35,044 nucleotides of DNA, taken from positions 1-35,044 of the forward strand of contig NZ_QWEK01000038.1 of NCBI RefSeq assembly GCF_009935845.1, in the 5' to 3' direction. Numbering within the stretch: position 1 is the stretch's first letter; every line of letters starts with the position of its first letter. The notes under the pieces were generated by a model. It had not been told where the DNA came from, made no database searches, and worked only from the letters and a program-made list of their open reading frames with translations. Position numbers and translations under genes: made by a program. Positions 10,347 through 34,815 of the stretch are shown here, piece by piece. The stretch is from Pseudoflavonifractor sp. 524-17 (lineage in GTDB: Bacteria; Bacillota; Clostridia; Oscillospirales; Oscillospiraceae).

Positions 10347-10409
10347 GTCTATGTCCGTCATGGGTTGAGTGCAATCCACCAAACCAAATCTATCTTAGGA
10401 GGAATGATT

Positions 10410-12303: not shown

Positions 12304-12316
12304 ATGGAGGTTCATC

Positions 12317-13105
12317 ATGGACAATACGAAACTGAAAGGCCGTATGAGCGGTAAAGTACAGGAGTTGCAGCAGCCGGCAGGAGATCAGAATATCACCGTC
12401 GCTTCTGCCGCCGCTGCTTCGCTGGCCCCAGTGGAATCAAGCTATCTGGCCTTGAATAACAACGCCCTCGACATCATCCGGGCGAATCTGAAAAGCCAGC
12501 CCTTGACCCTCGACCTGTTCGACATCGTGAAGTCTCCGTCTGGCGGTTCCACGATCTTTGAGGTTCCGGGGTTGACTGGAAACGAGGCGGCAACGGAGCT
12601 GTCGGGCATTGTGCTGGACTACACCACGCCCCGGGCCTACTGGGATACGCCCGATCCGGTAGAGGGAACGCCGCCCGTCTGCATGAGCCAGAACAGCATT
12701 ATCTCCCACGATGGGAAGTCCTGCGCTCTGTGTCCGTACAATGACTTCGGTTCCAAGGACGGCGACAGCAACGCCAAAGCGTGTAAGGAATCTGTGCTGC
12801 TGTTCCTGCTGCGGCCCAATAGCATCATTCCCCTGCTGGTTCGCGTTCCCGTGACCAGCAAGCCCCGTTTCCTGAAATACTCCACCCGTCTGCTGAGTAC
12901 CCTGACGCCGATCAGCAGCGTGGTCACGAAGATCACCTTGGAGAAGGCCACCAGCAAGCAGGGAAAACCCTACGCCCTGTTTAACTTCCAGACGGTCGGT
13001 ACTCTCAGCCCGGAAGAAGCGGCCCAAGCGAGGACGTTCGGGCAGCAGTTCATGGAGATCGTGAACGCCGCCCAGATGATGCCGGAGTTGGCCGAGGCCA
13101 GCTAA
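12317..13105 (+). CDS. Cys-containing mobile-element protein, probable recombination or ssDNA-binding partner
   Basis: A 262-residue protein. The first 40 residues are flexible and Q/A-rich. A Cys cluster (DGKSCALCPYNDFGS, with a further Cys in KACKESV) near residues 133-160 could bind zinc. The region after it (PRFLKYSTRLL, SVVTKITLEKAT, KPYALFNFQ) is predicted strand-rich, like an OB-type or annealing-type core. I recognise the CxxCPxN...KAC pattern from uncharacterised phage and element proteins found beside YqaJ nucleases. The role as an SSB or annealing protein is inferred from position. GGAGG precedes ATG at 12317. A strong terminator follows. Confidence 0.65.
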   Translation: MDNTKLKGRMSGKVQELQQPAGDQNITVASAAAASLAPVESSYLALNNNALDIIRANLKSQPLTLDLFDIVKSPSGGSTIFEVPGLTGNEAATELSGIVLDYTTPRAYWDTPDPVEGTPPVCMSQNSIISHDGKSCALCPYNDFGSKDGDSNAKACKESVLLFLLRPNSIIPLLVRVPVTSKPRFLKYSTRLLSTLTPISSVVTKITLEKATSKQGKPYALFNFQTVGTLSPEEAAQARTFGQQFMEIVNAAQMMPELAEAS

Positions 13106-19277: not shown

Positions 19278-19318
19278 ATCACAGGCAATAAAATTGATGA
19301 TTGGAAAGAGGCGATAAT

Positions 19319-20389
19319 ATGCAGCGATTCAATATCAACTGGACGGCGAAGGCCCTGGTGAATCAGATGGAGAAGGGCAAGGTCAATTACGATAACGCCG
19401 TGCAGCGCAATCTTGTGTGGGATGCAGACAAAAAGTCTCTCCTGATCCACAGCATGATCTACGGCTATGCGATCCCCGCCATGTACTTTACTCGTGAAGA
19501 GAACGGCGTCTATGACAGCCTGGATGGGAAGCAGCGGTCAAACACCATCAGCGAATTTCTCCATGATGAGTTCGCATTGTCCACCGACACCCCTGCTGTC
19601 GTAGATGACAACGGATGTGTGGAGGATGTCAGCGGATTGTATTTCTCGCAGCTACCGGAATGGGCGCGGGATCGTATCAAAGACTACAACCTCACGATCT
19701 ACTATTATGAGGGGATGACAGAAACGGAGATCAGAGAGTTCTTCCGCAGGCTGAACAACGGCAAGCCTTTAAGCTCCATTGAGCTGACCCGTGCCAACGT
19801 CCCCAGCTTGTCGATCTTCCAGCAGCTTGCCAAGCACAAGGCAATTCAGTTCGTAGTTTCAGATGCTGGCAGGAAGCGGTTCACTGACGAAATGATCGCC
19901 ATGCAGCTTTACCAGCTTATTACAGAGGAATCCCCCGACTTCTCCACTAAGCCCTTCAGGGAGTGGGCCAGCAAGGTAGAGGTTGACAGCGAAGTGCTGG
20001 ACACGATCAGCTCTGGGTTGGATGCCTATTCAGTGTTCGCCAGGAGTCTGATTGATGTCAATAACAAGGTCCTCCGTACCGTCAAGGGCAGGACGCACTT
20101 CATCAGTTGCGTCTATTACTGCTGTCTGGCAGTTGAAAACGACGTGAACCAGGATGAGATCAACCGCACCTTGGCCGAGTTCTTCAGCGGGCATCCCTCT
20201 ACATCGCCGGAGTACAATCACACGGTATCCGCTGGCAGCGCAAAACCTACGTCGGTGCAGACACGGCGGGACGTTATGCGGTCTTTGCTCCCGTCGGCTG
20301 ATGAGATGGATGAACCTGACCTGGAAGACGTTGGCTTTGATAATATGGACGATCCAGAACAATTCGAGGAGGAAGATTATGAGTCATGA
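19319..20389 (+). CDS. DUF262 domain protein (ParB-like/GmrS-type fold)
   Basis: A 356-residue protein with DUF262 signatures: NAVQRNLVWDADKKSLLIHS near residues 26-45, SLDGKQR at 67-73 (the DGQQR-type NTPase/nuclease motif), then a helical region with EIREFFRRLNNGKPLSSIEL near 140-160. Known: DUF262 occurs in type IV restriction enzymes (GmrSD) and related proteins that hydrolyse NTP. The C-terminal DUF1524 HNH nuclease of GmrSD is absent, and the tail is acidic (DEPDLEDVGF, EEEDYES). ATG at 19319 has AAAGAGG upstream. The overlap with the next gene suggests a functional group of three. A defence or DNA-quality role is inferred. Confidence 0.88.
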   Translation: MQRFNINWTAKALVNQMEKGKVNYDNAVQRNLVWDADKKSLLIHSMIYGYAIPAMYFTREENGVYDSLDGKQRSNTISEFLHDEFALSTDTPAVVDDNGCVEDVSGLYFSQLPEWARDRIKDYNLTIYYYEGMTETEIREFFRRLNNGKPLSSIELTRANVPSLSIFQQLAKHKAIQFVVSDAGRKRFTDEMIAMQLYQLITEESPDFSTKPFREWASKVEVDSEVLDTISSGLDAYSVFARSLIDVNNKVLRTVKGRTHFISCVYYCCLAVENDVNQDEINRTLAEFFSGHPSTSPEYNHTVSAGSAKPTSVQTRRDVMRSLLPSADEMDEPDLEDVGFDNMDDPEQFEEEDYES

Positions 20390-21685: not shown

Positions 21686-21702
21686 ATATGAGGGGGATGG
21701 AT

Positions 21703-22260
21703 ATGAAGATCGGCTATATCAGGGTCAGCACACAGGAGCAGAATACCATCCGGCAGGAAGTCTTGATGGAATCCTTGGGTGTGGATGAGGTCTACATCGA
21801 CCGTATGAGCGGCAAGAATACCAACCGTCCAGAGCTGCAACGGATGATGGAGTATGTTCGTCGTGGGGACACCGTGATCGTGGAGAGCATCAGTCGTTTT
21901 GCCAGGAACACCCGCGACCTGCTGGAGCTGGTGGAGCGGTTGACTGCCAAAGGTGTTGAGTTCGTCAGTAAGAAGGAGGCCATCGACACCACTACTCCAA
22001 CAGGGAAATTCATGCTGACCATCTTCGGGGCCGTGGCAGAGCTGGAACGAGAGTACATCCTGCAACGTCAGCGGGAGGGCATCGCCATTGCCAGGGAGCA
22101 AGGGAAGTACACCGGGAGAAAGCCCACGCCAGCACCGGACTTTGATCGTGTGGTTGCACAATGGCGCAACGGAGAGATTACAGCGGTTGAGGCCATGCAG
22201 ACTCTCAAAATGAGTAAGACCACCTTTTACAGGCGGGTGAAGGAGATGTCTGGTTTATAA
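21703..22260 (+). CDS. Serine recombinase (resolvase/invertase family)
   Basis: A 185-residue site-specific recombinase. The N-terminal catalytic domain reads MKIGYIRVSTQEQN with the nucleophilic serine at residue 9, followed by DRMSGKNTNRPELQRMMEYV and ESISRFARNTRDLLELV with the conserved arginines. AELEREYILQRQREGI is the long E helix. The C-terminus has a helix-turn-helix (ITAVEAMQTLKMSKTTFYRR). Length and layout match small resolvases/invertases rather than large integrases. GGGGGAT precedes ATG at 21703. Palindromes immediately upstream may be its recombination site. Likely jobs: resolving dimers or cointegrates, or inverting a segment (inference). Confidence 0.95.
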   Translation: MKIGYIRVSTQEQNTIRQEVLMESLGVDEVYIDRMSGKNTNRPELQRMMEYVRRGDTVIVESISRFARNTRDLLELVERLTAKGVEFVSKKEAIDTTTPTGKFMLTIFGAVAELEREYILQRQREGIAIAREQGKYTGRKPTPAPDFDRVVAQWRNGEITAVEAMQTLKMSKTTFYRRVKEMSGL

Positions 22261-22314
22261 TTGACCGCTTGTTTGATACTGGGATATCAGATTTGATTCT
22301 GGAAGATCGTGGAG

Positions 22315-22364
22315 GGCAGGGGATGTTCAAATATCTATCCCTTGCCTTTCACAATTATTTTTTT
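22315..22364 (+). terminator. Terminator or attenuator in the primase-helicase leader
   Basis: GGCAGGGGAT (22315-22324) pairs with ATCCCTTGCC (22337-22346) at 9 of 10 positions, followed by TTTC and an AT-rich stretch with seven Ts near 22358-22364. It lies just upstream of a ribosome-site hairpin, so it may end the resolvase transcript or attenuate read-through. Confidence 0.6.
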
Positions 22365-22366
22365 CA

Positions 22367-22414
22367 ATCAGCTCCTACAGAAAAGGTAAAAAAATTAGAA
22401 TTTAAGGAGCTGAT
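22367..22414 (+). promoter_or_regulatory. Ribosome-site-sequestering stem before the primase-helicase
   Basis: ATCAGCTCCT (22367-22376) is perfectly complementary to AGGAGCTGAT (22405-22414), which contains the AAGGAG site for the ATG at 22419. The loop is 28 bases and A-rich. Folding would shut off translation, a layout common for tightly controlled replication proteins. Confidence 0.65.
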
Positions 22415-22418
22415 AATC

Positions 22419-25112
22419 ATGTATCCCATTAAGCTATGCCTCGACCAGAATCCTTTCTCAACAAAGCCCAAAGCTGTTGCTATTAAAGGCATCAGTGCAA
22501 GGATTGGCGGTTGTACCACTCAAATTAGCAACCGTGCTGATTTGGAAGATTTCATTAAGAAGGTCAGCACCCAAGGATACACATTCTGCACAGCCACGTT
22601 CTCCAATAGTCATCGGTGTCAGGAGAACTTTGTACAACAGCAACTCATAGCGATGGACTTCGACAATGATAAACAGGGAAAGGCTGTCACATTTGACGAG
22701 ATAAAAAAACGATCCGATTACTACGATCTTCACCCTCTGTTTGCGTATCATTCTCTACGAAGCACACCTGACCATCCCAGATTTCGACTACTGTTCCTCA
22801 ATGATGTTTCCATTTCTGATCCACGAGTAGCCAGGGCAACGCAGCTTGCTGTAGGAGAGATATTCCCTGAAGCCGATTCATCTTGCTATAATGACGTGTC
22901 CAAAATGTACTTTGGCGGCAAGGAACTGATCTACTTTGATGAAACTATTCCCATGATCGACATAGACACGATCTTCCGTAATCTTCATCACTGTATCAAG
23001 AAGAAGTACGGAGAGAGACATTACAAAGAGAAGCTCCAACGATTCTCGAAGAAGACAGGTATCTCACTGACTAAGAAGGGGTTCTTAGATGTATCTAAGT
23101 CAGATGAGCCGGACGAGCCAGCTCATCTGACAGAAGGCACTGGTGCATCAGGCTTTACCAAAAATGGGGGAAATTCGCCAAATACTATTATTATGTATAA
23201 TAAAACAGGTGATGGCGAAAATCCCCCATTTTACATTATTAACTTTAGCGATCGTGGCACCAATAACCCTTCTGTCGGAGTGGGTTCGTCAGAAAGCCAC
23301 TCCGACAATCATAAACAGTACAGATCTTCCACCATCAAGAGTATTCGTCAATGTTGCCTCTTGTACAGAGAGTTCGAGGATGGAGAGAGAGGTCTTCAAC
23401 ATAATGAATCTTTCCATTTGTTATGCAACCTGATTTTCGTTGAGTCTGGTTCCTCGCGGTTCATCAACATCATGTCAAAATACCCAGAGTTGTACGATAA
23501 AGCGTGGAAGTGGGTAATCGATGTAAAACGGACTGAAGAAGCCCAAAAATCACCGACAACGTGTGATAGATACTGTCCGTATTGTAAAAAGTGCAACCAC
23601 GCTAGAACCATCCTGACCACAGCGCACCCCAGCCGTAATTTGATGGAACCGGACCCCAATTACGATGTGAAATACTACTCGCTGGAAGAAGCTCAAAGTG
23701 ATGTTTATGAAGTTATCCACGAGGCTTATATGCAAAACGATAATCGTATCCACATCATCAAAGCCCAAGTTGGGATTGGAAAGTCCCACAGCTACTTGCG
23801 GATCATGGAGGAGAATCCAGGTGAACGATTCCTGATTGCTGCCCCAACGAATCTGCTGAAGAATGAGCTGTACAAAAAGGCGAAGGGTATGGGAAGCAAT
23901 GTGTGTGTGACGCCCTCATTGGAAGAGATCAAGGATGAGATCCCATCAGAGGTATGGGAAAGAATTCAGTGGTTTTATAAGCGAGGACAGCATCGCCCGG
24001 TGGCTCTCTACATCAAGAAAATTCTTGAGACTGAGGGCATTACCTGCTTGAAAGAGTACATGGAGCAGAAGGAACGGGTCAGGAAGTCGAAAGGCTGCCT
24101 CATCACCACGCATCGCTATATGCTTACGATGGACGAGGACCGCCTGAACGAGTTTGACAACATCATTGTTGACGAAGATATTATCTTCAAGAGCATTATC
24201 ACGAATCAAGGTGAGATCACCGTCTCCGCTTTGAAAAAACTGAGACGAAGCACCACGGACTCAAGGCTTAGCAATAAGATCAAAGAGTTGTTGGCTCAGG
24301 CTGAAGTGAAATCTTGCATTAAGTTGGACTCCTTTGAGTATGAGAGCGAGGAAGATGTAGGTGTTGGTAATAATAAAAAATCAGTCCCCCTGGACATAGC
24401 ATCATTCTGCGCTACCAGACATTTCTATATTCGCAGAGCGGTGAATGAGCGGAACTTGAAAGCGGACACCGTTTCTTTCTTAAAGCCCTCGGCTCTAAAG
24501 AACATGAAGCACATTATCGTTTCTGCCACCGTTGATGAGGATATTTGCCGCCAGTTCTTTGGCGAGGATCGAGACGTTGCCTTTTATGAGTGCAAGCAAG
24601 CTCAATATATGGGAAAGATGCTCCAGTATCCAGATAAGTCAATGAGCCGATCCAGTATAGACAACAATAAAGGAATTGTTTCCCGTTTGGTACAACACTT
24701 TGGTCTTGATAAGAGCCATCTTATAACTTTCAAGAAAGAAAAAACTGGGGATCTCCATTTTGGCAATACTGAGGGGAGCAATGCTCTGGAAGGTCAGGAT
24801 ATTCTTGTGGTTGGGACACCATATCATGCTGATTTTCTTTACAAGCTGATTGCTTTTACATTGGGCTACGACTTCGACGAAGATGAAGAGATGACACCTC
24901 AAATCGTCTATCGGAATGGGTATCGAGTGTGGATCAATACTTACCAGAATGAGAATCTCCGAAAAGTCCATCTCTGGATGATGGACAGTGAACTGGATCA
25001 AGCCACAGGGCGAGCCAGGCTCCTGCGGCATGATTGCACAGTTCACTTGTTTTCAAGATATCCGATGAAACAGGCAGAGATAGTCAAGGGATTTGATTAT
25101 GGCAAAGAGTAG
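22419..25112 (+). CDS. Primase-helicase fusion (AEP-like primase, zinc motif, SF2 helicase)
   Basis: An 897-residue replication protein. Residues 60-190 look like an archaeo-eukaryotic primase-type domain: IAMDFDND (acidic D-x-D), SLRSTPDHPRFRLLF, and DVSKMYFGG. A Cys cluster (CDRYCPYCKKCNHAR) near 380-395 is a likely zinc site. The helicase half has Walker A VGIGKS near 452-457, Walker B IIVDEDI near 581, SAT motif III (IIVSATVDED) near 700 and motif VI QATGRARLLR near 862. It would prime and unwind DNA of the element. ATG at 22419 is chosen for its AAGGAG and the family-like start; earlier in-frame codons overlap the leader structures. The linker between the halves (about 222-300) is encoded by four stem-loops. 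The gene is more AT-rich than ligA. Confidence 0.82.
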   Translation: MYPIKLCLDQNPFSTKPKAVAIKGISARIGGCTTQISNRADLEDFIKKVSTQGYTFCTATFSNSHRCQENFVQQQLIAMDFDNDKQGKAVTFDEIKKRSDYYDLHPLFAYHSLRSTPDHPRFRLLFLNDVSISDPRVARATQLAVGEIFPEADSSCYNDVSKMYFGGKELIYFDETIPMIDIDTIFRNLHHCIKKKYGERHYKEKLQRFSKKTGISLTKKGFLDVSKSDEPDEPAHLTEGTGASGFTKNGGNSPNTIIMYNKTGDGENPPFYIINFSDRGTNNPSVGVGSSESHSDNHKQYRSSTIKSIRQCCLLYREFEDGERGLQHNESFHLLCNLIFVESGSSRFINIMSKYPELYDKAWKWVIDVKRTEEAQKSPTTCDRYCPYCKKCNHARTILTTAHPSRNLMEPDPNYDVKYYSLEEAQSDVYEVIHEAYMQNDNRIHIIKAQVGIGKSHSYLRIMEENPGERFLIAAPTNLLKNELYKKAKGMGSNVCVTPSLEEIKDEIPSEVWERIQWFYKRGQHRPVALYIKKILETEGITCLKEYMEQKERVRKSKGCLITTHRYMLTMDEDRLNEFDNIIVDEDIIFKSIITNQGEITVSALKKLRRSTTDSRLSNKIKELLAQAEVKSCIKLDSFEYESEEDVGVGNNKKSVPLDIASFCATRHFYIRRAVNERNLKADTVSFLKPSALKNMKHIIVSATVDEDICRQFFGEDRDVAFYECKQAQYMGKMLQYPDKSMSRSSIDNNKGIVSRLVQHFGLDKSHLITFKKEKTGDLHFGNTEGSNALEGQDILVVGTPYHADFLYKLIAFTLGYDFDEDEEMTPQIVYRNGYRVWINTYQNENLRKVHLWMMDSELDQATGRARLLRHDCTVHLFSRYPMKQAEIVKGFDYGKE
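23084..23307. repeat. Four consecutive stem-loops within the primase-helicase gene
   Basis: Inverted pairs: CTTAGAT/ATCTAAG (23084-23099); GTCAGATGAGC/GCTCATCTGAC (23099-23131, 11 of 11); 20-base arms at 23161-23180 and 23213-23232 (17 of 20) with a nested TTATTA/TAATAA; TGTCGGAGTGG/CCACTCCGACA (23273-23307, 11 of 11). They occupy the low-complexity interdomain linker and so are not explained by protein conservation. Confidence 0.8.
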
Positions 25113-25129
25113 AGGCCTTTGTCTATGAC

Positions 25130-25300
25130 ACCGGCGTAGGCGATTGATTACGCCGGTTCCCATCACTCATCCTATTTCCGACCTGGTTAAGAGAGTGTTT
25201 CACAGTTGACGTATTTGTATCAGTTCGGGCATTAGGCTATAAGACGCACCACTGGCAAACAGTGACGGTGGTATACCGTTCCATACCACTGCATACCGCC
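25130..25300. promoter_or_regulatory. Structured intergenic region with hairpins and 10-bp spaced repeats
   Basis: The 261-bp gap 25113-25373 holds ACCGGCGTA/TACGCCGGT (25130-25157, perfect 9-bp arms), CACTG/CAGTG just upstream of 25265, GTGGTAT/ATACCAC (25268-25289) and three ATACC direct repeats at 25273, 25283 and 25293, exactly 10 bp apart. It lies between two replication-type genes, so it may be an origin or operator. No convincing promoter hexamers are seen. Confidence 0.5.
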
Positions 25301-25373
25301 GTTTATATAGGATAGAAATAGCAATCACACACAACTTATCCGTAAAATATCTTCGTAAAAAAGGCGGGTCATT

Positions 25374-26351
25374 ATGGTTCTAAATCAGACATTGGAGCTG
25401 TCCATGATACTGGACACAGACCACTTTCAAAGGCTCTTTACCAGCAAGAGCGTATACTTGAAAGAGCTTGATGATGAGTATCTCGACACTTCCCTGGCAA
25501 CAAAGGGACTTACCATCATCTACCGAGACAGCCGCTATAAAAAGAAAATTCGAGTTCTCGTTAATGCTGGCATGGTCGTGAATGACCTGTCTAACACTGA
25601 CAAGCTGCTCCATAAACTGGATAAGCGTATTGGTGGATACTTCGATCACAAGTACACGCTGAATAATTTCACTTTGTCCGGTGTGACCTTTACTGTTGAC
25701 ATAGACGTTGGCAGTCATGAAAAGGTATTGGACTACTTAAAAGGCATAAAGAGGGTTGGCAGAGTCAAAGGCTTTTCCCCTGTCAGCTATGATTGTTTTG
25801 ACGAAAAGGCCAGCTTCTGTCTGAGCGGCAACAGCAACGACACGGATTTTCTTTTGTATGATCTGGAGAAGGCCACCATAGATCAACTACGGAATGCAGA
25901 TGCAGGACGGAAGCAGCTACAATCAGTGAGTGAACGGATCAAGGGAATCCTCCGAGCAGAGATACGGCTGACAAAGCCAAAGGCCATCCGGGAGTACGCA
26001 GATGCAACCGATACATCCGGCCAGATCGTTGAGATGATGAAGAACAGCACCGATGCCTTCATGGGCACGTTCACACGGGTGGTTCCCTTCGGGGATTTCT
26101 ACAAGATGGATGCCGCTGTCGAGATCGTCCGTAGCGAGGTCAAGGACAGTATCATGCGGAGAAGAATGTTGCGGCTCCTTGCCCTGATCCCGGAGAAAAA
26201 GTCTCTCCACCTTGCTCAGAAAGAGATGAACTGTCGGGATGTGGATAAAGTGATGGAAGCCTTTGCTCAGATTCACCTGTCGCCCGTCACCATCAGCAAG
26301 CGGCATGAGGTCAAGCACTTGGATAACCTATATTCCTACTTTCTAAAATGA
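25374..26351 (+). CDS. Possible replication initiation protein (gpII/X-like, tentative)
   Basis: A 325-residue protein. The N-terminal half is strand-rich (GLTIIYRDSRYKKKIRVLVN, then FTLSGVTFTVDIDVGS). The middle has YDCFDEKASFCLSG and a helix leading into ILRAEIRLTKPKAIREY, reminiscent of the conserved arginine-rich strand of phage/plasmid gene II/X replication proteins. The C-terminal half is helical (RRRMLRLLALIPEKKSL). Identification is tentative because no catalytic tyrosine motif is obvious. ATG at 25374 is used; ATG at 25404, with GGAG 6 bases upstream, is an equally good start. It overlaps the next small gene as ATGA. It sits between the primase-helicase and the DNA translocase. Confidence 0.5.
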   Translation: MVLNQTLELSMILDTDHFQRLFTSKSVYLKELDDEYLDTSLATKGLTIIYRDSRYKKKIRVLVNAGMVVNDLSNTDKLLHKLDKRIGGYFDHKYTLNNFTLSGVTFTVDIDVGSHEKVLDYLKGIKRVGRVKGFSPVSYDCFDEKASFCLSGNSNDTDFLLYDLEKATIDQLRNADAGRKQLQSVSERIKGILRAEIRLTKPKAIREYADATDTSGQIVEMMKNSTDAFMGTFTRVVPFGDFYKMDAAVEIVRSEVKDSIMRRRMLRLLALIPEKKSLHLAQKEMNCRDVDKVMEAFAQIHLSPVTISKRHEVKHLDNLYSYFLK

Positions 26352-26524
26352 TGATCGCGGCGATTGACGAGAAGATTGCAAAGACGCAGACAGAGGTTGA
26401 ACTTCTGGAAGCTCAGATGCAAAAGCTCCTACATCCCGTCAACATGCAAACAGTGATGGCGGCAGCAAAGGAAGCCGGACTTACACCGGAAGAGATTGGA
26501 GGGAAATTAGGATTGGAAGTCTGA
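26348..26524 (+). CDS. Small coiled-coil protein (58 aa)
   Basis: A 58-residue protein beginning at ATG 26348, overlapping the previous stop as ATGA (a second ATG follows at 26351). Residues 5-28 (DEKIAKTQTEVELLEAQMQK) form a heptad-like helix, and the rest (MQTVMAAAKEAGLTPEEIGG) resembles a short helix-turn-helix tail. Such peptides often act as oligomerising partners or copy-control proteins; that is inferred from position only. A strong terminator begins 4 bases after the stop. Confidence 0.6.
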   Translation: MMIAAIDEKIAKTQTEVELLEAQMQKLLHPVNMQTVMAAAKEAGLTPEEIGGKLGLEV

Positions 26525-26528
26525 GTGT

Positions 26529-26567
26529 GAGGGGCTGCGTGTGGGGCAGCCCCTCGTACTTGTTTTT
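26529..26567 (+). terminator. Rho-independent terminator
   Basis: GAGGGGCTGC (26529-26538) pairs perfectly with GCAGCCCCTC (26546-26555) around GTGTGGG, followed by GTACTTGTTTTT. It closes the replication-type genes and isolates the translocase gene. Confidence 0.92.
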
Positions 26568-26651
26568 AGTCAGAAATTGAGAAAACAGTTACCCCCTCTC
26601 CACTCATAGGGACAGATGATGCCACGAGATGTAGGGGCCGTTTTGACATGC

Positions 26652-26748
26652 TTATCTTATTATCTTATCAAATTATACTTTACATTTCTCAATATACATT
26701 ATATAATTAGATTAAAGTATATTCTAAAAAGATAAGAGAACAAGATAA
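26652..26748 (+). promoter_or_regulatory. Promoter inside nested inverted repeats, upstream of the translocase
   Basis: TTTACA (26679-26684) and TATAAT (26702-26707) are separated by exactly 17 bp, a good sigma-A promoter. ATACTTTA (26675-26682) and TAAAGTAT (26713-26720) frame it, and outside these TTATCTTATTATCTTATC (26652-26669) pairs with GATAAGAGAACAAGATAA (26731-26748) at 16 of 18 positions. The whole AT-rich block is an imperfect palindrome and probably an operator. Confidence 0.7.
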
Positions 26749-26772
26749 CTCAAAGAAAACGGAGGGGTTGCA

Positions 26773-29700
26773 TTGGACGACAGTGAATACCGTATCCTCA
26801 GAACGGACATCATCCACATTGTGTGTGACGAGCTTAATAAATTCCTTGGGTGCCACAGCGATGATGATAAGCACCTATATGAGTTAATGCTGCATATCAA
26901 GGATACAATAGCAAGCGGTTACACCTGGGATATGGAAAAGGTAAAAATCGTGTTGTCGGTGCTTCGGTTAAAGGAGCGAGACACTGTTCAGGAAATACAG
27001 TCTTTTCTTGAACAGTCTGGCTATGGCTGGCAGGGCGATACATATCAATTTTACAACAGGTGTCTTCACTTTGACCAGCGGTGCAGACGCAACCAGCTCA
27101 TAGACAATGATGCAAATGCAACAGCTAAAGTGTTTTCAGATATGGATGACATTTTTCTCCATAAAGAATATGGGGCCGTCACCACCTATCTCTTTGGGTA
27201 CTGTATCACTGCCCTGTTCAGCAGCTTGTTAAAAACTCAGCATAGGGGCATTCCCTATTTCCTTCAAATAGCTTGCAGACACAACTCAAATACATATAGA
27301 CTGGTACATGAAGTAGTTCAGATATGCGATGTGAATGCGGGATTATTCGACAAATGCCAGGAATTTCACTACGCTGAATGTGACCATATTCACGCAACAA
27401 TTTACCCTAAAAGCACATCAGAGAACTCGTTGGATAGCCTATTGTATTATCGAGACATTCCTGTGATTGTGGATGGATATGAAAATGAGAAACTATATAT
27501 AGCCTTGCTCCGTGAGACAGCAAACATCCCTAACAGAACCAAGAGGCTTGACATCAAAGCCAAGTTCAAGGTGCTTCCAATTTTTCTATGTCCAGCGATT
27601 CAATCACAATTCCGCAACGTCCTTAATATGAATCTTACGGAGCTGGAGGTTGATGATGAGTATATCGATCTTATTTCCTCACGCAGACAGCAATTAGGCT
27701 CTTGGACATATGAGCTTGTGAGAGATGCAGAGAAATACTTTGATGCGGATAATTCAACTGCATACTCTTCTCTATCAGCTACACAAAAGATAGCTGAACG
27801 CCACAAATACGGAGGTAAGATTCCTCTATTATACGATCTTGATGACAGTATTGATCGTTTGCGGACAAAGTATGGAGGAAGGACAGAAGTCACTTCAAAA
27901 GACATAACTAACATCAGTTATCTGGCGTACTTCTTTTCACACTTTATGAAGGTTTTCGAGCGTTCTATACGGCTATCTGAGGGAACGGAGTTTGCATATA
28001 GAGCGCAATATCGGAAACACAATCCAAGAGAGTTGGTGAAGAAAATAGCAGATGAGGCTGTTGATGCTCTGTTCAAACTTCATGCTGCATATGCGCCAAC
28101 ACAACTGGAAACCATCAACATTGATACAGGTTTTTCTGATGCAACGGAGAAGAAACGTATTAACCGGAAAGGCACAGCATACGCTAAAGACATCATAAAA
28201 TACTATCAAAGCTATAAGGTTTCCATAGCGATAGCGCCGGAGGCTGAATACAGGGATGGCAGATATGTCTTTTCAGTTAAGTTGCTGCCTGGAACAGACG
28301 GGAAATTGATTAGCCGATTTGCGGAGGAGGTCAGGAGATTATTAGAAGTGGAGATTCTCACTCCTGATGTAACGCCCCATTCAATAAAGCTGATTGTCTC
28401 TGAACAGCCTCTGAAAGAGAATAGCCTGATTAAGATATTGGAAAGTCAGGATTTCAAAGAAAGCCAGATGGAAATACCATATGCCGTTGGCTATGATATG
28501 ATGGGTGAGATGGTTATTGCAGATGTCGCACAATTCCCCCATCTACTGATAGGAGGCACCACGAAGTCTGGTAAATCAAGCGCCTTGTTCAGCTTGATAA
28601 TGAGCATTGTCTATCAACAGCCACCTGATAAGGTAAAGCTGCTGCTATTTGATTTTGGTGCATCTGATCTTAAGATGTTCGATAAAGTTCCACATATGTT
28701 GCAGCCCACTATAAGAGTACATGAGATTGAACGGGGACGCCAATATATATCGTGGCTCCAAAGGGAAATGGAAAACCGCCTAAAGAAGAAAGATTCATTT
28801 GATGAAAGAAAGTTCATTGAAGAGTGCAAACGCTGGCCATCCATCGTCTGTATTATCGATGAATTTCCAGCATTCATCCAGCAATTATCTTATGGGAGAG
28901 GAAATAAGAAGTCATCTGCTGTTATCGAAGACCTGCTGGCACGTGCCAGGAAGGTTAAGATTCATCTGGTATTAACAGCCCAGGACACAACCAAGGCCGG
29001 TACAGGAATTAAAAATACTAATCTGGCTGCGGGCATTGCCTTTAGATGTACTAACTGGCACACCTCAAAGGTGATAATCGGTGAATCTGATGCTGTGAAT
29101 TTATTTGGGAAAGGGGCGATGTACTTTAGATGTGACCAGTATGAGGGCCTTAGAAGATTACAAGGTTCATTTATGCCCACCGAAGAAATCATAGATATGC
29201 TCGATGCCATGGATTTTAGTCAGATCAGTGCTGGGAAGCAGTATGATGAGGTCCAACTAGGAAGCGAAACATTGTTTGAAAACACTCAATTAGGAAGCTC
29301 CCTGATTACTTGCGATACTGAAATAGAAGCCGACCTTGATAAGCAGCGTTTCATCGAGATTGTCATGTGGATGCGTGATGATAAGAAGGAGAAAATTTCT
29401 AATAAACAGCTCAAAGACAAATTTGAGATGGGGTATGATAGGGCAAATAGATTCCTTCAGATGCTAGAAGATGCCGGAATTATATCGGAACAGAAGAAGG
29501 GAACAAAGTTACCTAGGACTGTGAATCAGGATAAGCTAGAGGAATTTTTGAATAGTCATAGGTACACAAGTGATGTTACCGAGGACGCATCAAATCAGGG
29601 GTTGGATTTATTTGATATACCGACCGATACTGAGTCAGCACAAGATCATGACATAGAAGTCCCTGATAGGCCTTCAGATGCCCAAGAGCGACTTCTATCC

Positions 29701-29796
29701 CCTGCTGTGTCTCAATCCAAACAGCCTAAATCAAACTTCAGTAATATAACGAGGATGTCAGACCGTAAAAAGTTCAGAAAAAAGCCTTTCCATTAA
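26773..29796 (+). CDS. FtsK/SpoIIIE-type DNA translocase with gamma-like winged helix
   Basis: A 1007-residue ATP-driven double-strand DNA pump. The first 570 residues are mostly helical, without the transmembrane helices of chromosomal FtsK. The motor domain has Walker A GGTTKSGKSS at about 594-603, FDFGASDLKMF after it, Walker B SIVCIIDEFP at about 690-699, and LVLTAQDTTKAGTG downstream. Residues about 858-920 (FIEIVMWMRDD, ISNKQLKDKFEMGYDRANRF, LQMLEDAGII) match the FtsK gamma domain that reads oriented DNA motifs. The tail is disordered and basic. The start is TTG at 26773 with GGAGGGG upstream. It is monocistronic between two terminators. Chromosome-type segregation, dimer resolution or conjugative dsDNA transfer are possible; no relaxase is seen. 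Confidence 0.9.
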   Translation: MDDSEYRILRTDIIHIVCDELNKFLGCHSDDDKHLYELMLHIKDTIASGYTWDMEKVKIVLSVLRLKERDTVQEIQSFLEQSGYGWQGDTYQFYNRCLHFDQRCRRNQLIDNDANATAKVFSDMDDIFLHKEYGAVTTYLFGYCITALFSSLLKTQHRGIPYFLQIACRHNSNTYRLVHEVVQICDVNAGLFDKCQEFHYAECDHIHATIYPKSTSENSLDSLLYYRDIPVIVDGYENEKLYIALLRETANIPNRTKRLDIKAKFKVLPIFLCPAIQSQFRNVLNMNLTELEVDDEYIDLISSRRQQLGSWTYELVRDAEKYFDADNSTAYSSLSATQKIAERHKYGGKIPLLYDLDDSIDRLRTKYGGRTEVTSKDITNISYLAYFFSHFMKVFERSIRLSEGTEFAYRAQYRKHNPRELVKKIADEAVDALFKLHAAYAPTQLETINIDTGFSDATEKKRINRKGTAYAKDIIKYYQSYKVSIAIAPEAEYRDGRYVFSVKLLPGTDGKLISRFAEEVRRLLEVEILTPDVTPHSIKLIVSEQPLKENSLIKILESQDFKESQMEIPYAVGYDMMGEMVIADVAQFPHLLIGGTTKSGKSSALFSLIMSIVYQQPPDKVKLLLFDFGASDLKMFDKVPHMLQPTIRVHEIERGRQYISWLQREMENRLKKKDSFDERKFIEECKRWPSIVCIIDEFPAFIQQLSYGRGNKKSSAVIEDLLARARKVKIHLVLTAQDTTKAGTGIKNTNLAAGIAFRCTNWHTSKVIIGESDAVNLFGKGAMYFRCDQYEGLRRLQGSFMPTEEIIDMLDAMDFSQISAGKQYDEVQLGSETLFENTQLGSSLITCDTEIEADLDKQRFIEIVMWMRDDKKEKISNKQLKDKFEMGYDRANRFLQMLEDAGIISEQKKGTKLPRTVNQDKLEEFLNSHRYTSDVTEDASNQGLDLFDIPTDTESAQDHDIEVPDRPSDAQERLLSPAVSQSKQPKSNFSNITRMSDRKKFRKKPFH

Positions 29797-29887
29797 GGAC
29801 ATCTTCCAACAGGTCAACGGTATTGGAGGCAAGCGATTCTATTCTATCAAACTCAGCAATTTAATGTAAGGCGACAGTACGATGAAG

Positions 29888-29916
29888 GGGTAGGGATGTG
29901 GTCCCTACCCTTTTTT
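29888..29916 (+). terminator. Terminator between convergent translocase and tniQ
   Basis: GGGTAGGGA (29888-29896) pairs perfectly with TCCCTACCC (29902-29910) around TGTGG and is followed by six Ts. The stop codon of tniQ lies inside the stem, so the two convergent transcripts share this structure. Confidence 0.92.
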
Positions 29917-31386
29917 GCCGCCGTATTTTATAATGGAGCGTAGTTCATCTATTATCACTGAACTGGTAAATATGGAAATATAAGGCAGACATGCTCTACA
30001 ATTCGCTGGCCGCATATTGGTCAGCTCCCGTATCCTCCGCCATACCAACGGGGAGCCAGCAGATATAAGCTGGTTAGCAGCCCACACCACTTCCCTGGCC
30101 CAATACTGTTCCTGTGATTCCTCGTGCCGCCGTATCTCAGCCAAGCATTGTGGCAGATACAGGGAGATTTTCTTACTGGATAGATGTAACATCCGCTCGA
30201 CAGCGAACACCGTAACCCGTCGTGGTCTGGTGGTTCCATCACCCTGTAGTTGCCTGATCGCATCCTTCACCAGAGGGAGAGTATCATTGTCGATCTTCTC
30301 CCAGTCCTGGGGCTTGGCTCCGCTCTTCAAGGGAACTTTCGGTGACTTATGGTACGTCCCATACCGCTGCTCACCTATGGCCTTGACGGTATTATAGGAC
30401 GCATTTAGCTGCCTGGAAATCTCTGGGTACTTCAAGCCTTCATCGTGTAGCCGATAGACCTCTTCATCGAATAGTTGCTGCTGGGACTTCTCCGGCAGCT
30501 TCATATTGACCAGATCAGCGACAGGGACACCCAGGAACATAGCCAGCATACAGACTTCACAGGAGTTTATCCTATCATTGGTCAGCACCTTTTGTATCTG
30601 CCATAGCTTGGTAAACCAGTTGCCCGGTAGTTCCCGATAGAACTCCAAGAAGTCAGAGTGCAACAGCTTGATATTCCTCTGCTCTCCCCGGACAGACCGA
30701 TACTTTGTGTTCGCCATGCGGGAATAAAGGAACTGCCCCACGGCAACATCCGACTGCATATCAACATCAGATTGAACAACCTCGGTCATATAGACAGCTA
30801 GACGGCGTTCGAGCTCAGAGGCCATTACCACCACATCTGATGCAGGGATAACTTCTTCCGCCGATCTCAGCATGGGCGGCATCTTCCCGCTGATAACGAT
30901 ACTGCTGTCAACGAGATAGCATCCATGCACCGGACACGCAGCCAGCCCGATCATCTGGGGGGTACGATGCCAATAGGTTTCTCCGTACTCCTGCCTGTCC
31001 TGTTCAGCACACATGGGACAGTACCGCAAGCACCTATCAGAATTACCTTTCCGGGTAGGAATTGGCAGTAGGTTATGATAGTTCCCCTGCATGGATACCA
31101 GAGCCTGGAAAGCCCGTTGCCTGCGCTCCAAGGGCAGGAACCTCCCGTAGTAGGAGAACATGGTGTGCTTCATCACCACATCCTCCATTGTCGTATCCTT
31201 GTTAATCATCCGCAGAGCATCAGGAGTAAACACGTTGAGGAAGTTCATATCAGGCCGCACCGTCTTTGATACATACAGCTCCTCGGCGGCATAGGTGTAG
31301 GCCATGTATCCAGACTTGGTGTAGTACCTGGCTAACTGGCTGTAGAGCAATTCGTCAGGATACGCCGCAGGAAAGTAGGAGATCAT
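29905..31386 (-). CDS. tniQ: TniQ/TnsD-family target-selection protein
   Basis: A 493-residue DNA-binding protein that would choose the insertion site and recruit TnsC. The N-terminal TniQ domain starts SYFPAAYPDELLYSQLARYY. A zinc site follows: C123-P-M-C126 and C151-P-V-H154 with the TYWHRTPQMIGL linker, the usual TniQ arrangement. The C-terminal half has helix-turn-helix-like segments (YRLHDEGLKYPEISRQLNAS, YNTVKAIGEQRYG), as in TnsD proteins that read a fixed attachment site. Its length is closer to TnsD than to the short CRISPR-linked TniQ. It starts at ATGA, overlapping the tnsC stop by 4 bases. Only one TniQ is present, and no TnsE or CRISPR-Cas genes, so a single targeting route is expected. 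Confidence 0.92.
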   Translation of the reverse strand: MISYFPAAYPDELLYSQLARYYTKSGYMAYTYAAEELYVSKTVRPDMNFLNVFTPDALRMINKDTTMEDVVMKHTMFSYYGRFLPLERRQRAFQALVSMQGNYHNLLPIPTRKGNSDRCLRYCPMCAEQDRQEYGETYWHRTPQMIGLAACPVHGCYLVDSSIVISGKMPPMLRSAEEVIPASDVVVMASELERRLAVYMTEVVQSDVDMQSDVAVGQFLYSRMANTKYRSVRGEQRNIKLLHSDFLEFYRELPGNWFTKLWQIQKVLTNDRINSCEVCMLAMFLGVPVADLVNMKLPEKSQQQLFDEEVYRLHDEGLKYPEISRQLNASYNTVKAIGEQRYGTYHKSPKVPLKSGAKPQDWEKIDNDTLPLVKDAIRQLQGDGTTRPRRVTVFAVERMLHLSSKKISLYLPQCLAEIRRHEESQEQYWAREVVWAANQLISAGSPLVWRRIRELTNMRPANCRACLPYISIFTSSVIIDELRSIIKYGGKKG

Positions 31387-32624
31387 ACCGCTACCTCCAC
31401 CACAGGCAGATGATTCTTCAACAGCTCCACGATGTCAACGCCCTCGGTTTTGGCCTGAGATACCAGACCAGCAATCGTAAACTCTCCACACTCTTCACTA
31501 TCAGGAAGGCTCATACCCACAGTAGACATCTTGCGCTTGGCCTTGGAAGTCTGTTTCTTCTGTTCTGGCTGGATGAACCCGTGGAGCATAGATAATCTTT
31601 GTTGGTAGGCTTCATTCAGCGATTCCAGGTTTAAGACCTCTCTGCTGTTGAGAATGGCGATCTCCTGAGCATCGTGGATAAGGGACACCACCACCGAGAT
31701 ATTTCCCGACGTATGCTCATAGAGCCACGTCATAACCGCATCTGTGATCTCTGTCCTCCACTTCACATACTGGTAGGAATATAGGACTTCACAGAACGTC
31801 TTGAAGTCCTCCCCATACCCCATCACATCATACCGCAGGCCCAATGATCTCCGGGCAAGCTGCATAGCCTGTTCAAAGAACACAGCACTCTCAGGCGTAC
31901 CCACCATACAGGTTGAAATACCGCTATTGTTGATAAGCTGAGTGAGCATCCCCACAAGGCTTTTGCCATGCTTGCTGTTGCACACGTTCTGAATCTCGTC
32001 TACCACCAGCAGGCCGATGTGGTTCAACGCCACCTGACTGACGCTCCCAATTAACATATCCGTTGTAGCCCTGGCTCTCAATGCGTTCTGATAATAGTTG
32101 CTGTCGATAGCCTCGTCAACCTTCCGCAGCACTTCCAGTAGCAAGCCTTTCACAGAAGAATCAAAGGGACACTGGACACAGATGCAGGGGATGATCTTGG
32201 TGTAGGGATTCTCCACCTCAATGATTCGCCCCTCGGTAATCAGGGTAATTGCCCTGCTGATAGCCGAACTCTTACCTATGCCAGAGGCCCCAATGATGGT
32301 GAAACTGTCGGAACCACCCATGATGCCACTGTACTCCTGCTGCATGATGGCTTTGAAATTCTGATTCTGCTGCTGGACTGCCAGCTTCGTACCCTTCTTC
32401 TGCAACGACCGTATCAGCGCCAAGTATAGCTTACTGTAAATTTCCAAAGACATCTGAGAGGGGACATACACCCGGTAGAGGTCAGATAGAGCCATGAGCC
32501 GGACAGGAGTTTCGGCATCACAGATAGCTGCGTCATACTCTGGCAGCACTTCTAAGGCAGACAGCAACTCGCTCCCGGACTTCATCGGTGGCAGGATATG
32601 GATAATGTCTGTAAAATCACTCAC
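31383..32624 (-). CDS. tnsC: TnsC-like AAA+ ATPase, transposition regulator
   Basis: A 413-residue AAA+ protein that links target selection to the transposase. Walker A GASGIGKSS lies at 112-120, Walker B GLLVVDEIQN at 204-213, a sensor-1-type STCMVGTPES near 237-246. The C-terminus is basic (KKQTSKAKRK), likely for transposase contact. The start is GTG at 32624 with GGAGGG upstream; the frame overlaps the end of tnsB by 8 bases and the start of tniQ by 4, showing coupled translation. Confidence 0.93.
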   Translation of the reverse strand: MSDFTDIIHILPPMKSGSELLSALEVLPEYDAAICDAETPVRLMALSDLYRVYVPSQMSLEIYSKLYLALIRSLQKKGTKLAVQQQNQNFKAIMQQEYSGIMGGSDSFTIIGASGIGKSSAISRAITLITEGRIIEVENPYTKIIPCICVQCPFDSSVKGLLLEVLRKVDEAIDSNYYQNALRARATTDMLIGSVSQVALNHIGLLVVDEIQNVCNSKHGKSLVGMLTQLINNSGISTCMVGTPESAVFFEQAMQLARRSLGLRYDVMGYGEDFKTFCEVLYSYQYVKWRTEITDAVMTWLYEHTSGNISVVVSLIHDAQEIAILNSREVLNLESLNEAYQQRLSMLHGFIQPEQKKQTSKAKRKMSTVGMSLPDSEECGEFTIAGLVSQAKTEGVDIVELLKNHLPVVEVAV

Positions 32625-34446
32625 GGCTCGTTCCCTCCTTCATGTAGTCCCGATGGCGTTTAGTCTGTTCCTGCCTCCTGGTGCTGCGGATATTTTTCAT
32701 GTGAACATCACTACGGCCAGCGCCACTACCTACGATGGCTTCTATATGCTGGGCAAGGTTGATTTGAGCCTGTAGGTTATACTTAACTTCACCTCTGGCA
32801 ATGTCCCTCTGGCTGGTCTGTAGTTCCTGTACTGCCGTAAGGTCTTTGCCTTGATAACGAGATTCTATAACGATGAACTCTGTATAGATACCATCTTCAA
32901 GCGCCCATACGGAGGACACGTCTTCTGGATTGTAGGCCACAGTCACATCACCGCCGGATAGGTACTGCTCTGTGTACCCCTCACGGTGATACCGGAGCTT
33001 GTTGACCTTCAATCCTGACCTGCTGAATCTCCCGGTAGTCCTCGGCAGCAATGTCAGCATCAGCTCTCTTTTCCCAATTTCAATGAGATTGGCCCCAATT
33101 TGGGATTTTCCCCAATTCCAGATTTGGGAAGCGTAGGGCTTCACCTGAGCGGCGATCATGTTCTCGGTATAGGGGAAACTCTCGACTATCCGTTGAGAGT
33201 TGTAGTAGATGATACAGTGCAGTACGATCTTCTCAAAGTCAGTCATGGTCAGACAGGCATCTTTCCGGTAGTCGTGCGCTCCTCGCTCCTGATAGTCAGG
33301 CTCAATAACTCCCTTACCCTTCAAGTGCTTCTTGTAACTCTCCTGCATCAGATCGAAGAATTTCTCTATCAGCCCCTTCAACTCTGGCCTGTAAGATGGA
33401 AGATTGACCACCTTGACACCCAGCTCTGCGATTTGCTCAAAGTTCCCTGATGTATACTCACTTCCCATATCGGTGATGAATGTAGCTGGAAGCATATCAC
33501 AGTCCCAGTCCTCACGATGGATGGAGATACCGAACCGATTACACCAATCCACCTTATCAGCCACGATGTTGAGCATCAGTCCCCGGAGACTATACACTCC
33601 GCCTTCCCATGACAACGAGTATCCACAACATAGGCCACTGTAGGCATCGACACAGGCTGTCAAGATAGGTCTACCCACCAGACTTCCAGTGTCATTGACA
33701 AGATAGATGTCGCAGACCGTAGCATCAAACATCCCCACACCAACAGCAGGTGCAAATTCCTGTACCCCGTCACCAGTCAAAGGACGATTGTTCCTCTGGT
33801 AATTCTTCAAACCATCACGGGAGATGTAGAAGTTCTGGAGGTTCCTGGTCTTACGATAGAAGTACCGGAACTGATAGAAGGACGGGTACTCTTCTGCCAG
33901 TACCCCCAGGGCATCACAGTACTTCTCTTTGAGCATCATTGTGTAGGCTGTCATGAGAGATTGTTTCTTCGTGGTGTAGAAGAACTTATTTAACGCCCAG
34001 CGGATGTTCTTCTCGTCCTGGGTCAACGCTCGATCATCCTCCCGATGCTTGGGAGCAAGAGCAGCCACATCCAGGTAGGACAGATACAGACAGAGATAGC
34101 TTCTGACCGTCTGCTTTGATACGCCGTACTCCTCGGACACAGAGCAGATCAACCGAGAACGCATCCAATTATCAGCCACGAAGGACAGGATAGGAGCTAT
34201 CATCGTGTACCGCTCATACATGGTTTTCCTTTGGTCGACATCGAGAGCATCAACATCGGATAGAACAACTCCCGTAGCCTCAGACAGCTCACCACTGGTA
34301 CACTCGGAGTAGGATTCCAGCTCCGCAACATCCACCCAGACAGGCATCGTCCTCTTGATGCAGTCGATCACCAGAGCCCTGTCACCCTGCACTCCCAGCA
34401 CTCGGATGATACTGTCACCAGACCGAAGCAGATCATACTTCTTCAT
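32617..34446 (-). CDS. tnsB: TnsB-like DDE transposase
   Basis: A 609-residue transposase that binds element ends and joins 3' ends to target DNA. Counting from the TTG one codon upstream, the catalytic triad is D242 (MFDATVCDIYLV), D327 (FITDMGSEY) and E362 (PELKGLIEKFF), the D-D-35-E spacing expected for an rve integrase core. A helix-turn-helix (EEYGVSKQTVRSYL) lies near 107-120 and a Mu-type C-terminal barrel (RFSRSGLKVNKLRYHREGY) near 475-495. The basic tail (RSTRRQEQTKRHRD) probably contacts TnsC. ATG at 34446 follows GGGTGG. It overlaps tnsA by 14 bases. Confidence 0.95.
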   Translation of the reverse strand: MKKYDLLRSGDSIIRVLGVQGDRALVIDCIKRTMPVWVDVAELESYSECTSGELSEATGVVLSDVDALDVDQRKTMYERYTMIAPILSFVADNWMRSRLICSVSEEYGVSKQTVRSYLCLYLSYLDVAALAPKHREDDRALTQDEKNIRWALNKFFYTTKKQSLMTAYTMMLKEKYCDALGVLAEEYPSFYQFRYFYRKTRNLQNFYISRDGLKNYQRNNRPLTGDGVQEFAPAVGVGMFDATVCDIYLVNDTGSLVGRPILTACVDAYSGLCCGYSLSWEGGVYSLRGLMLNIVADKVDWCNRFGISIHREDWDCDMLPATFITDMGSEYTSGNFEQIAELGVKVVNLPSYRPELKGLIEKFFDLMQESYKKHLKGKGVIEPDYQERGAHDYRKDACLTMTDFEKIVLHCIIYYNSQRIVESFPYTENMIAAQVKPYASQIWNWGKSQIGANLIEIGKRELMLTLLPRTTGRFSRSGLKVNKLRYHREGYTEQYLSGGDVTVAYNPEDVSSVWALEDGIYTEFIVIESRYQGKDLTAVQELQTSQRDIARGEVKYNLQAQINLAQHIEAIVGSGAGRSDVHMKNIRSTRRQEQTKRHRDYMKEGTSRE

Positions 34447-34780
34447 CAATGACCACCCCCCAGTCTGTGACCCCGTGCCTGAGCCAGTAGTCCCTGGAAG
34501 CGTCCAACAGCTTCACTGTCAGAGGCTTCATCAGGAACTTTCTGAACACACACTCCCGCACCATCAGATCACCGTTGGCTTTGGTGCATACGAAGTCAGA
34601 TGTGTACTCGCCAACCTCCAGCCCATCCAGCAGGACATTACATTTGATCTCCTTGATTTCGTCCGATGCTTGCAGCAGGTCGGCATAGGCATACTGGACA
34701 GCATCATACGTCCTGCACACCTCAGAGCACTTGCCAATCACCCGTTTCTCGCACCGCCCCTTGAAGTTCTTCTTTCTCAT
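34433..34780 (-). CDS. tnsA: Minimal TnsA-like endonuclease subunit
   Basis: A 115-residue protein with the TnsA N-terminal nuclease pattern: EIKEIKCNVLLDG, then YTSDF with candidate catalytic D62, and LMVRECVFRK with E76; the lysine normally in the ExK triplet is replaced by V, with K81 nearby as a possible substitute. Known: TnsA cuts the 5' ends so that insertion is cut-and-paste, and Tn7 TnsA is about 270 residues with a C-terminal TnsC-binding domain. That second domain is absent here. ATG at 34780 follows GGGGAGGA; a GTG 27 bases upstream has no such site. First gene of the tns operon. Confidence 0.82.
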   Translation of the reverse strand: MRKKNFKGRCEKRVIGKCSEVCRTYDAVQYAYADLLQASDEIKEIKCNVLLDGLEVGEYTSDFVCTKANGDLMVRECVFRKFLMKPLTVKLLDASRDYWLRHGVTDWGVVIDEEV

Positions 34781-34815
34781 GCTTGCAGTCCTCCCCTGGG
34801 GGAACACTCTGCCAG

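Follow-up and report, generated by a model that had tools for sequence, protein, structure and literature searches.

Introduction

Tn7-like transposons combine TnsA, TnsB, TnsC and TniQ, carry several TnsB-type sites at each end and insert behind a conserved gene at a set distance from it, the tnsA end being the one adjacent to that gene, and with a 5-bp target duplication. Here we describe an element of gut bacteria with these features, a TnsA fold among them, on a contig of 35,044 bases from Pseudoflavonifractor sp. 524-17 (NZ_QWEK01000038.1), which was analysed whole and is called the window below; it is contig C70 of a 3.72 Mb genome in 149 contigs (handles beginning with G, C and L denote genomes, contigs and loci). 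Unlike known Tn7-like elements, it and its relatives have changed catalytic positions in TnsA, the same double-ended unit of about 249 bp at both ends in place of distinct ends, a replication module in the body, and guaA or ppdK as target. We propose, with a probability of roughly 55%, that the element is a plasmid-like replicating circle that the Tns proteins integrate as a lasting cointegrate.

Parts of this arrangement are known from other elements. In IS26-type pseudo-compound transposons a short mobile unit flanks the body on either side as a direct repeat, and a circle would carry one copy; here, in contrast, the unit is non-coding, the transposase genes lie in the body and insertion is site-specific. 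Actinomycete integrative and conjugative elements (AICEs) join an FtsK-like TraB to a replication protein and a recombinase. Our element likewise has an FtsK-type ATPase, a replication protein and a recombinase, although integration would be by Tns, the hosts are Clostridia and transfer is putative.

Tn5053/Tn402 and the type V-K CRISPR-associated transposons (CASTs) have no TnsA and form cointegrates (parts of PMC8649781 and PMC11406308); the replicative pathway expected of our element would be the same as theirs, and it has a serine recombinase. Where Tn5053/Tn402 lack tnsA and have a resolvase acting at a res site within the transposon, tnsA is here kept, though changed, beside a serine recombinase; moreover, the tns genes lie outside the double-ended unit, and the element apparently resides as the cointegrate itself. 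TnGBS-type integrative and conjugative elements (ICEs) have a DDE transposase in place of an integrase and combine it with a circle that replicates like a plasmid (as part of PMC3942029 describes). The DDE transposase without an integrase and, putatively, the plasmid-like replicating circle recur in our element, whereas the TnGBS transposase is of the Mutator type and the TnGBS circle has abutted ends. Here the proteins are of the Tn7 type, the unit has outward-lying ends, and no conjugation apparatus was identified by a Pfam family scan that covered 30 of the 32 window proteins.

The window holds essentially one complete element

Two exact copies of the 25-bp site TGTCGTAGGGCAATGTGATTTATCC lie in the window, at 53-77 on the minus strand and at 34969-34993 on the plus strand, forming an inverted pair; a search allowing up to three mismatches counted the same two sites against 0 expected. 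With end sites at both contig ends, the contig is essentially one complete Tn7-like element and all genes listed below fall inside it. It breaks off within both terminal units.

1..77, minus strand: left end, inner part of the left unit of about 249 bp, with a TnsB-type site at 53-77; the remainder lies past the contig edge
34968..35044, plus strand: right end, inner part of the right unit of about 249 bp, with a TnsB-type site at 34969-34993; the remainder lies past the contig edge

The first 77 nucleotides of the window are exactly the start of contig C110 and the last 77 exactly the start of C78, as expected if identical repeat units were collapsed during assembly. C110 runs on into guaA, 6 bp past the guaA stop. 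The assembly would fit either a chromosome in the order guaA-unit-element-unit-C78 or the order guaA-unit-C78 accompanied by a separate circle.

Each end is a double-ended unit

Each element end is a non-coding unit of about 249 bp with inverted termini of its own, formally a mini-transposon, and in the relatives the two units stand as direct repeats around the body. Both ends are thus the same unit, unlike the distinct left and right ends of Tn7-like elements. The two termini of each unit agree at 20-25 of 25 positions, and the interior holds a conserved centre and, by eye, a terminator-like hairpin. The right end reads target, unit, TGGTGATATT (the tnsA side) and the left end reads AAGGTCRAGGATACTA, unit, flank. 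We retained 31 complete units from right ends and 12 from left ends, and discarded 13 right-end and 8 left-end rows (partial units or a poor outer terminus, some of them repeats of one place). Conservation of the inner half-sites equals or exceeds that of the outer ones (0.778 versus 0.742 in 29 right units, 0.781 versus 0.709 in the 12 left units), also at positions 13-25, which lie outside the 12 nt used for selection. R_L028 and R_L035 were excluded from these means, and their inclusion leaves the result the same. A conventional transposon would have no need of inner half-sites.

In all seven pairs that could be assigned, the left and right units of the element differ less from one another than from every other right unit. 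Four pairs are nearly identical, with 0-2 differences: 1/249 in Sporomusa ovata (G547), whose units stand 47.6 kb apart, 0/252 in G549, 2/262 in G542 and 1/249 in G305. The others have diverged (G553, 17/251; G559, 12/262; G546, 28/249). The G542, G546 and G547 pairs each lie on one contig, while those of G549, G553 and G559 were joined across contigs of the same genome by their agreeing duplication; the G305 pair (R_L084/L_L009) was assigned by the flanks of a solo site in G587, the alternative around L009 giving 14/249. Pairs in G306 (18/249, unlike flanks), G554 (21/251, unlike flanks) and the source genome G000 (C99/C79, 23/248) were left out, as was G310, which has two left units and incomplete right units of its own. 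Free of any such assignment, the right unit nearest to a left unit comes from the same genome in 8 of 12 cases.

The target duplication is 5 bp, as in Tn7-like elements generally, with 4 bp in G542 and in the window. It is perfect in G546 and G547, each on one contig, and also in G549, G553, G559 and G305, where it helped to choose the pair.

Three side observations concern the units. Two ppdK-linked elements in G305:C19 (72607-72855 and 98655-109075; L107, L009) look recombined by inversion through their units. In L106 (G310:C51, 3086-12221) a tns-free stretch of 9.1 kb with HTH (helix-turn-helix), phosphoesterase and YpsA genes has a decayed right unit on one side and an intact left unit on the other, and stands beside the left end of another element. 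At L009:9395-9495 the inner half of the right unit and the tnsA-side boundary form a long hairpin (z -2.9), possibly a regulatory RNA or a cruciform ahead of tnsA.

TnsA is altered at two catalytic positions

Leftward from the right end runs a Tn7-type operon in which the AAA+ protein TnsC and a TniQ-family protein adjoin tnsB.

34433..34807, minus strand: TnsA, Tn7 TnsA fold with altered catalytic positions; conserved start at 34780
32617..34449, minus strand: TnsB, DDE transposase; Mu-transpos_C; Tn7 TnsB 7pik at E 3e-37
31383..32624, minus strand: TnsC, AAA+ regulator; AAA_22/TniB; Walker A GASGIGKS
29905..31386, minus strand: TniQ, target selector (guaA type); PF06527 at 3e-16

TnsB is related to Tn7 TnsB, and the alignment to 7pik covers the DDE blocks. 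Family searches gave no match for the window copy of TnsA. An alignment of 36 TnsA sequences has a mean column identity of 85%; PF08722 (TnsA_N) matches 25 of its members at E up to 1 (best 2.3e-5), and the AlphaFold model (predicted local distance difference test, pLDDT, 94.1) resembles Tn7 TnsA with a template modelling (TM) score of 0.79 and E 1.3e-5. We take the catalytic residues of Tn7 TnsA to be E63, D114, Q130 and K132, numbers and roles that our literature search did not confirm, and read their positions by alignment to a Klebsiella TnsA that itself matches Tn7 TnsA at 2e-65. The E63 position holds Q in 35 of the 36 sequences and M in one, and at the K132 position 35 sequences have V and one has I, so that both are altered in 36/36, as they would not be in a canonical cut-and-paste TnsA; the D114 position is D and the Q130 position E throughout. 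A comparison with hhalign agrees on the D114, Q130 and K132 positions, at 14% probability. Two of the four catalytic positions carry substitutions that are themselves conserved, and cutting by TnsA is seemingly disabled.

An active-site mutant TnsA of a Tn7-like CAST gives more than 95% cointegrates (part of PMC8188705), and elements without TnsA likewise give cointegrates (parts of PMC11406308 and PMC8649781).

A search with PF08722 for canonical TnsA found five places in 4 of 245 genomes, among them a tsf-linked TnsA in G031; the other places were not used. Elements of a more distant Tn7-like group stand behind tsf at L007 (TnsB 35%) and L117 (only TnsA seen), in G005 and G031. Both of these tsf-linked TnsA sequences are short and likewise lack the catalytic lysine, so that altered TnsA may define a larger clade.

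Insertion behind guaA or ppdK

As in Tn7-like elements, insertion is site-specific behind a conserved gene. All nine loci with a window-type TniQ (64-83% identity) have guaA upstream of tnsA, although gene and unit are not contiguous in L032 and L039. The element terminus lies 6 bp past the guaA stop in the window and in five other measured loci, and in L044 also 6 nt past guaA, as judged by its flank. Among 14 loci with a TniQ of about 28-31% identity and a flank, 12 have ppdK (L009-L012, L015-L019, L033, L047, L048); L022 borders another element and L026 has no match. TniQ distance alone does not tell the target, because L042 and L046 (TniQ 33%) have guaA upstream.

The source genome has further ends. 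Contig C79 (L005, 2939-3186) carries a second right end at ppdK, with tnsAB (TnsB 88%) and part of tnsC, and C99 (L066, 4026-4273) a further left end beside a truncated unit.

Solo units

A unit search over 400 family genomes, the source genome included, gave matches in 11. In G587 a 248-bp solo unit stands behind ppdK with ATTTC on both sides, a perfect 5-bp duplication, and its flanks are those of element ends in G305. In G212, a single-contig genome, a diverged solo unit of 246 bp stands behind guaA without a matching duplication, and no second unit was found in the 19 kb read behind it. Neither G587 (86% complete) nor G212 has a TnsB match. Truncated units at guaA or ppdK occur in G146, G038 and G039; the remaining matches are right ends and partial or short units.

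A replicon-like module accompanies the tns genes

Leftward of TniQ follow FtsK, p325, Rep947, the serine recombinase, two small genes, a GmrSD-type gene, LigA and small genes; beyond these lie p292, YqaJ and DUF932, then YpsA and an HTH gene near the left end.

26773..29796, plus strand: FtsK/SpoIIIE-type translocase; PF01580 at 1e-28; Walker A
25374..26351, plus strand: p325, conserved protein of the module, the 'possible Rep' of the sequence-only reading; no family match
22269..25112, plus strand: Rep947, helicase-type replication protein; helicase (DEAD) matches only
21688..22260, plus strand: serine recombinase (resolvase/invertase type); PF00239 at 4e-45
19301..20389, plus strand: GmrSD/DUF262-type protein
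17182..19227, plus strand: LigA, NAD-dependent DNA ligase; full length; KLDG
12227..13105, plus strand: p292, Cys-containing YqaJ partner; phrog_23155; true start probably further in than 12227
11359..12303, plus strand: YqaJ/RecE-like exonuclease; PF09588 at 2e-47
10263..11345, plus strand: DUF932 protein
2875..3396, plus strand: YpsA/SLOG gene, conserved left-end region
2424..2744, minus strand: HTH gene, conserved left-end region; 92-94% identity beside left units (C99, G310, G306)

The sequence-only reading had placed this gene set in 21703-34780. Its Tns proteins, TniQ, serine recombinase, LigA, YqaJ with a Cys-containing partner and FtsK all stand, although LigA and YqaJ lie outside those coordinates, still inside the element. 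The N-terminal part of Rep947 appears primase-like by eye. No family match was obtained for p325 in Pfam, NCBIfam, PHROGs or PADLOC; its structure model is poor (pLDDT 62), and the best Foldseek match, a TBP-TFIIB chain (E 3e-3, low TM), was not used. A gamma-like winged helix at the FtsK C terminus scores below the family cut-off. In the Pfam scan of 30 window proteins no tyrosine or large serine integrase family was found, and FtsK was the only match among the gene types of ICEs and integrative mobilisable elements (relaxase, coupling, mating-pair), p325 being unclassified.

We searched the window genes by tblastn in 54 loci (45 in genomes and 9 on viral contigs, leaving out the window's own viral record and the second locus of the L138 contig). 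Nine loci have a TnsB of at least 85% identity, TniQ and at least 3 kb beyond TniQ, and eight of them (L008, L010-L014, L138, L145; partial in L013 and L014) have FtsK, p325 and/or Rep947; the ninth, L009, keeps an FtsK remnant of 111 residues. In L049, L143, L144 and L151, with a close TnsB and no TniQ match, FtsK, p325 and Rep947 were all unmatched, and other loci with a close TnsB were too short to judge. L138 is in full synteny with the window (p292-DUF3846-p125-p210-GmrSD-p311-p161-SerRec-Rep-p325-FtsK-TniQ-TnsC-TnsB, where SerRec is the serine recombinase), its proteins being 51-91% identical to the window's except TniQ (30%). The same gene order recurring beside tns elsewhere shows that SerRec-Rep-p325-FtsK are not chance neighbours.

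At loci with a TnsB of 49-80%, FtsK, p325 and Rep947 were not found in the available stretch, with three exceptions (FtsK at 31% in L017, an FtsK fragment at 32% in L050, and p325 of a neighbouring element in L022). Three of these elements were read end to end. The 47.6 kb element at guaA in S. ovata has SerRec (75%), a full-length Rep947 relative (39%) and p325 (50%) in window order; the gene at the place corresponding to FtsK is a helicase, and FtsK was rejected there. Element 1 of G542, at ppdK, has DUF932, YqaJ and p325, and neither it nor the G546 element, both complete, has the window-type serine recombinase. The S. ovata element (L185-L187, G547:C1 373311-420888) also carries a molybdopterin oxidoreductase-like operon, by eye, and RadC, MoxR/VWA and helicase genes.

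Of 299 other family genomes, 4 have a relative of p325, which in three cases (44-50%) lies on a contig lacking tns; relatives of p325, YqaJ, p292 and DUF932 are found on tns-free contigs of G029, G038 and G125. Rep947 relatives, many partial, turned up in 14 of the 390 other genomes of the class, and 12 of these 14 lack a TnsB match. The module thus recurs with tns, as the sequence-only reading anticipated, but its genes also occur without tns, so that the finding by which that reading would have yielded to chance co-location was in part made. An origin of the module from a plasmid or phage was rejected: neither the 72,556 plasmid records nor the 50,697 phage records contain a match to p325 (E 0.01), and Rep947 had five plasmid matches, each over 18-19% of its length, and no phage match. 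On this comparison of sequences, the replicon-like genes are best described as a module of this element family that also exists apart from tns.

Two further observations concern the window as a whole. A 701-aa protein beside the left unit (259-2364, minus strand), with a GHKL ATPase and a nuclease-like end by eye and no Pfam or PADLOC match, is perhaps defence cargo. The whole contig is also the IMG/VR record UViG_2891278109_000005; the Pfam scan found no virion or packaging genes, and PHROGs searches of 10 window proteins gave one virion-type match, in which YqaJ weakly cross-matched a family annotated as virion structural. With virion genes not seen, a virus was rejected despite that record.

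A proposed cycle and its rivals

Architecture, recurrence, target, duplications, likeness of the units, solo units and changed TnsA residues were observed directly; from them we infer a circle, a cointegrate reaction, replication, excision and transfer. In this proposal the element body would be a plasmid-like replicon, and the transposon in the strict sense the non-coding unit of about 249 bp. The circle would consist of the body and one unit, at both ends of which TnsB, having its type of site at each, would nick, while TniQ and TnsC would guide the joining of the unit ends to the guaA 3' end. With two TnsA catalytic positions lost, the 5' strands would stay uncut, and replication through the unit would yield a cointegrate, guaA-unit-body-unit, with a short target duplication, as the resident form. 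Recombination between the direct units, by host RecA or the serine recombinase, would release the circle and leave a solo unit. The unit of the released circle would be two inner halves joined, and these would serve as the active ends in the following round. Rep947, p325, the serine recombinase, FtsK and the YqaJ set may copy, resolve and move the circle. Direct-repeat double-ended units, the changed TnsA site and solo units would all fit a circle integrated by Tns. What the sequence-only reading suggested is partly supported: the replicon genes sit within the element and accompany tns in other genomes too; the alternation between circle and insertion is reasoned from the units, the changed TnsA site and the solo units.

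Several observations weigh against the proposed cycle. The circular junction (left-inner boundary, unit, right-inner boundary), which the sequence-only reading had named as a check, had no exact match in viral_contigs, and the right-inner boundary does not follow any of the 12 complete left units. All 31 distinct units, from loci fetched mostly via TnsB, are element ends and none is solo; the solo units surfaced only in the wider unit search, and only one of the two full-length ones has a matching duplication. Three of the seven pairs differ by 4.6-11.2%, that of G546 on a single contig with a perfect duplication, and the G553 pair is in doubt, as the contig that bears its right end also contains a separate left boundary. 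Four of the 12 left units do not have their nearest right unit in their own genome, and gene conversion could also make units alike. The flanks share only 4 bp in G542 (TGGT) and in the window (TCAG). In G546 units are present and replicon genes absent, so the units do not depend on replicon genes. The inactivity of TnsA is a prediction from its sequence, and the CAST mutation hits an Asp that these elements retain (part of PMC8188705).

The strongest rival, which we nevertheless consider unlikely, is an ordinary cut-and-paste Tn7-like element whose outer ends move the whole, TnsA being active through an altered site or helped by another nuclease; gene conversion would keep the units alike, the inner sites would regulate tns and the replicon genes would be cargo. 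That the 5-bp duplications surround the whole composite, that the TnsA fold is kept with the D114 and Q130 positions invariant, and that some pairs have diverged all speak for it, and the hairpin beside tnsA could be regulatory; yet it has to accommodate two catalytic positions altered in every TnsA, near-identical units 47.6 kb apart, inner sites as conserved as the outer ones, and solo units in genomes without this TnsB. Somewhat less likely again is replicative movement of the whole composite by its outer ends, with resolution by the serine recombinase or RecA and no need of a free circle, the solo units arising by later deletion between direct units like solo long terminal repeats (LTRs). 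The changed TnsA, the serine recombinase, the solo units and the duplications flanking the composite agree with such movement, but it leaves unexplained the retention of inner half-sites and the frequent near identity of one element's units, and complete elements without the window-type serine recombinase (G546, G542 element 1) sit poorly with it. It is improbable that a Tn7-like transposon captured some unrelated element, either an integrated plasmid or a mobilisable element, and carries it passively: relatives of p325, YqaJ, p292 and DUF932 on tns-free contigs and of Rep947 in genomes without this TnsB favour such nesting, but the same module order accompanies tns in divergent elements (L138; S. 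ovata, Rep 39%) and at least parts of the module are present in eight of nine close loci, and no tyrosine or large serine integrase family appeared in the 30 window proteins scanned.

Significance

Each ingredient of the proposed cycle is known: Tn7-like targeting, cointegrates in the absence of TnsA activity, and circle-replicating elements with a DDE transposase. A literature search over titles and abstract openings, covering few subscription papers, found neither Tn7-like elements targeted to guaA or ppdK nor units of this kind, and within the same scope no element was found to combine a TnsA with conserved changes, double-ended units in direct repeat, solo units and a replication module. 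Beyond the integrated circle proposed above, we hold a fuller statement tentatively, at slightly worse than even odds: that Tns would serve as the site-specific integrase of a replicating circle, that the only true transposon would be the 249-bp double-ended non-coding unit, that a disabled TnsA would make cointegration the purpose rather than an accident, and that the element would switch between a circle with one unit and an insertion with two, solo units being the traces left behind.

The usual account has Tn7-like elements avoiding or resolving cointegrates (in part of PMC11406308). If the proposed cycle is true, these elements would use cointegration as an integration strategy, an unusual way of life for the Tn7 family, and would form a direct link between plasmids and Tn7-like transposons. 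The findings also suggest that the presence of a tnsA gene can mislead as a mark of cut-and-paste transposition.

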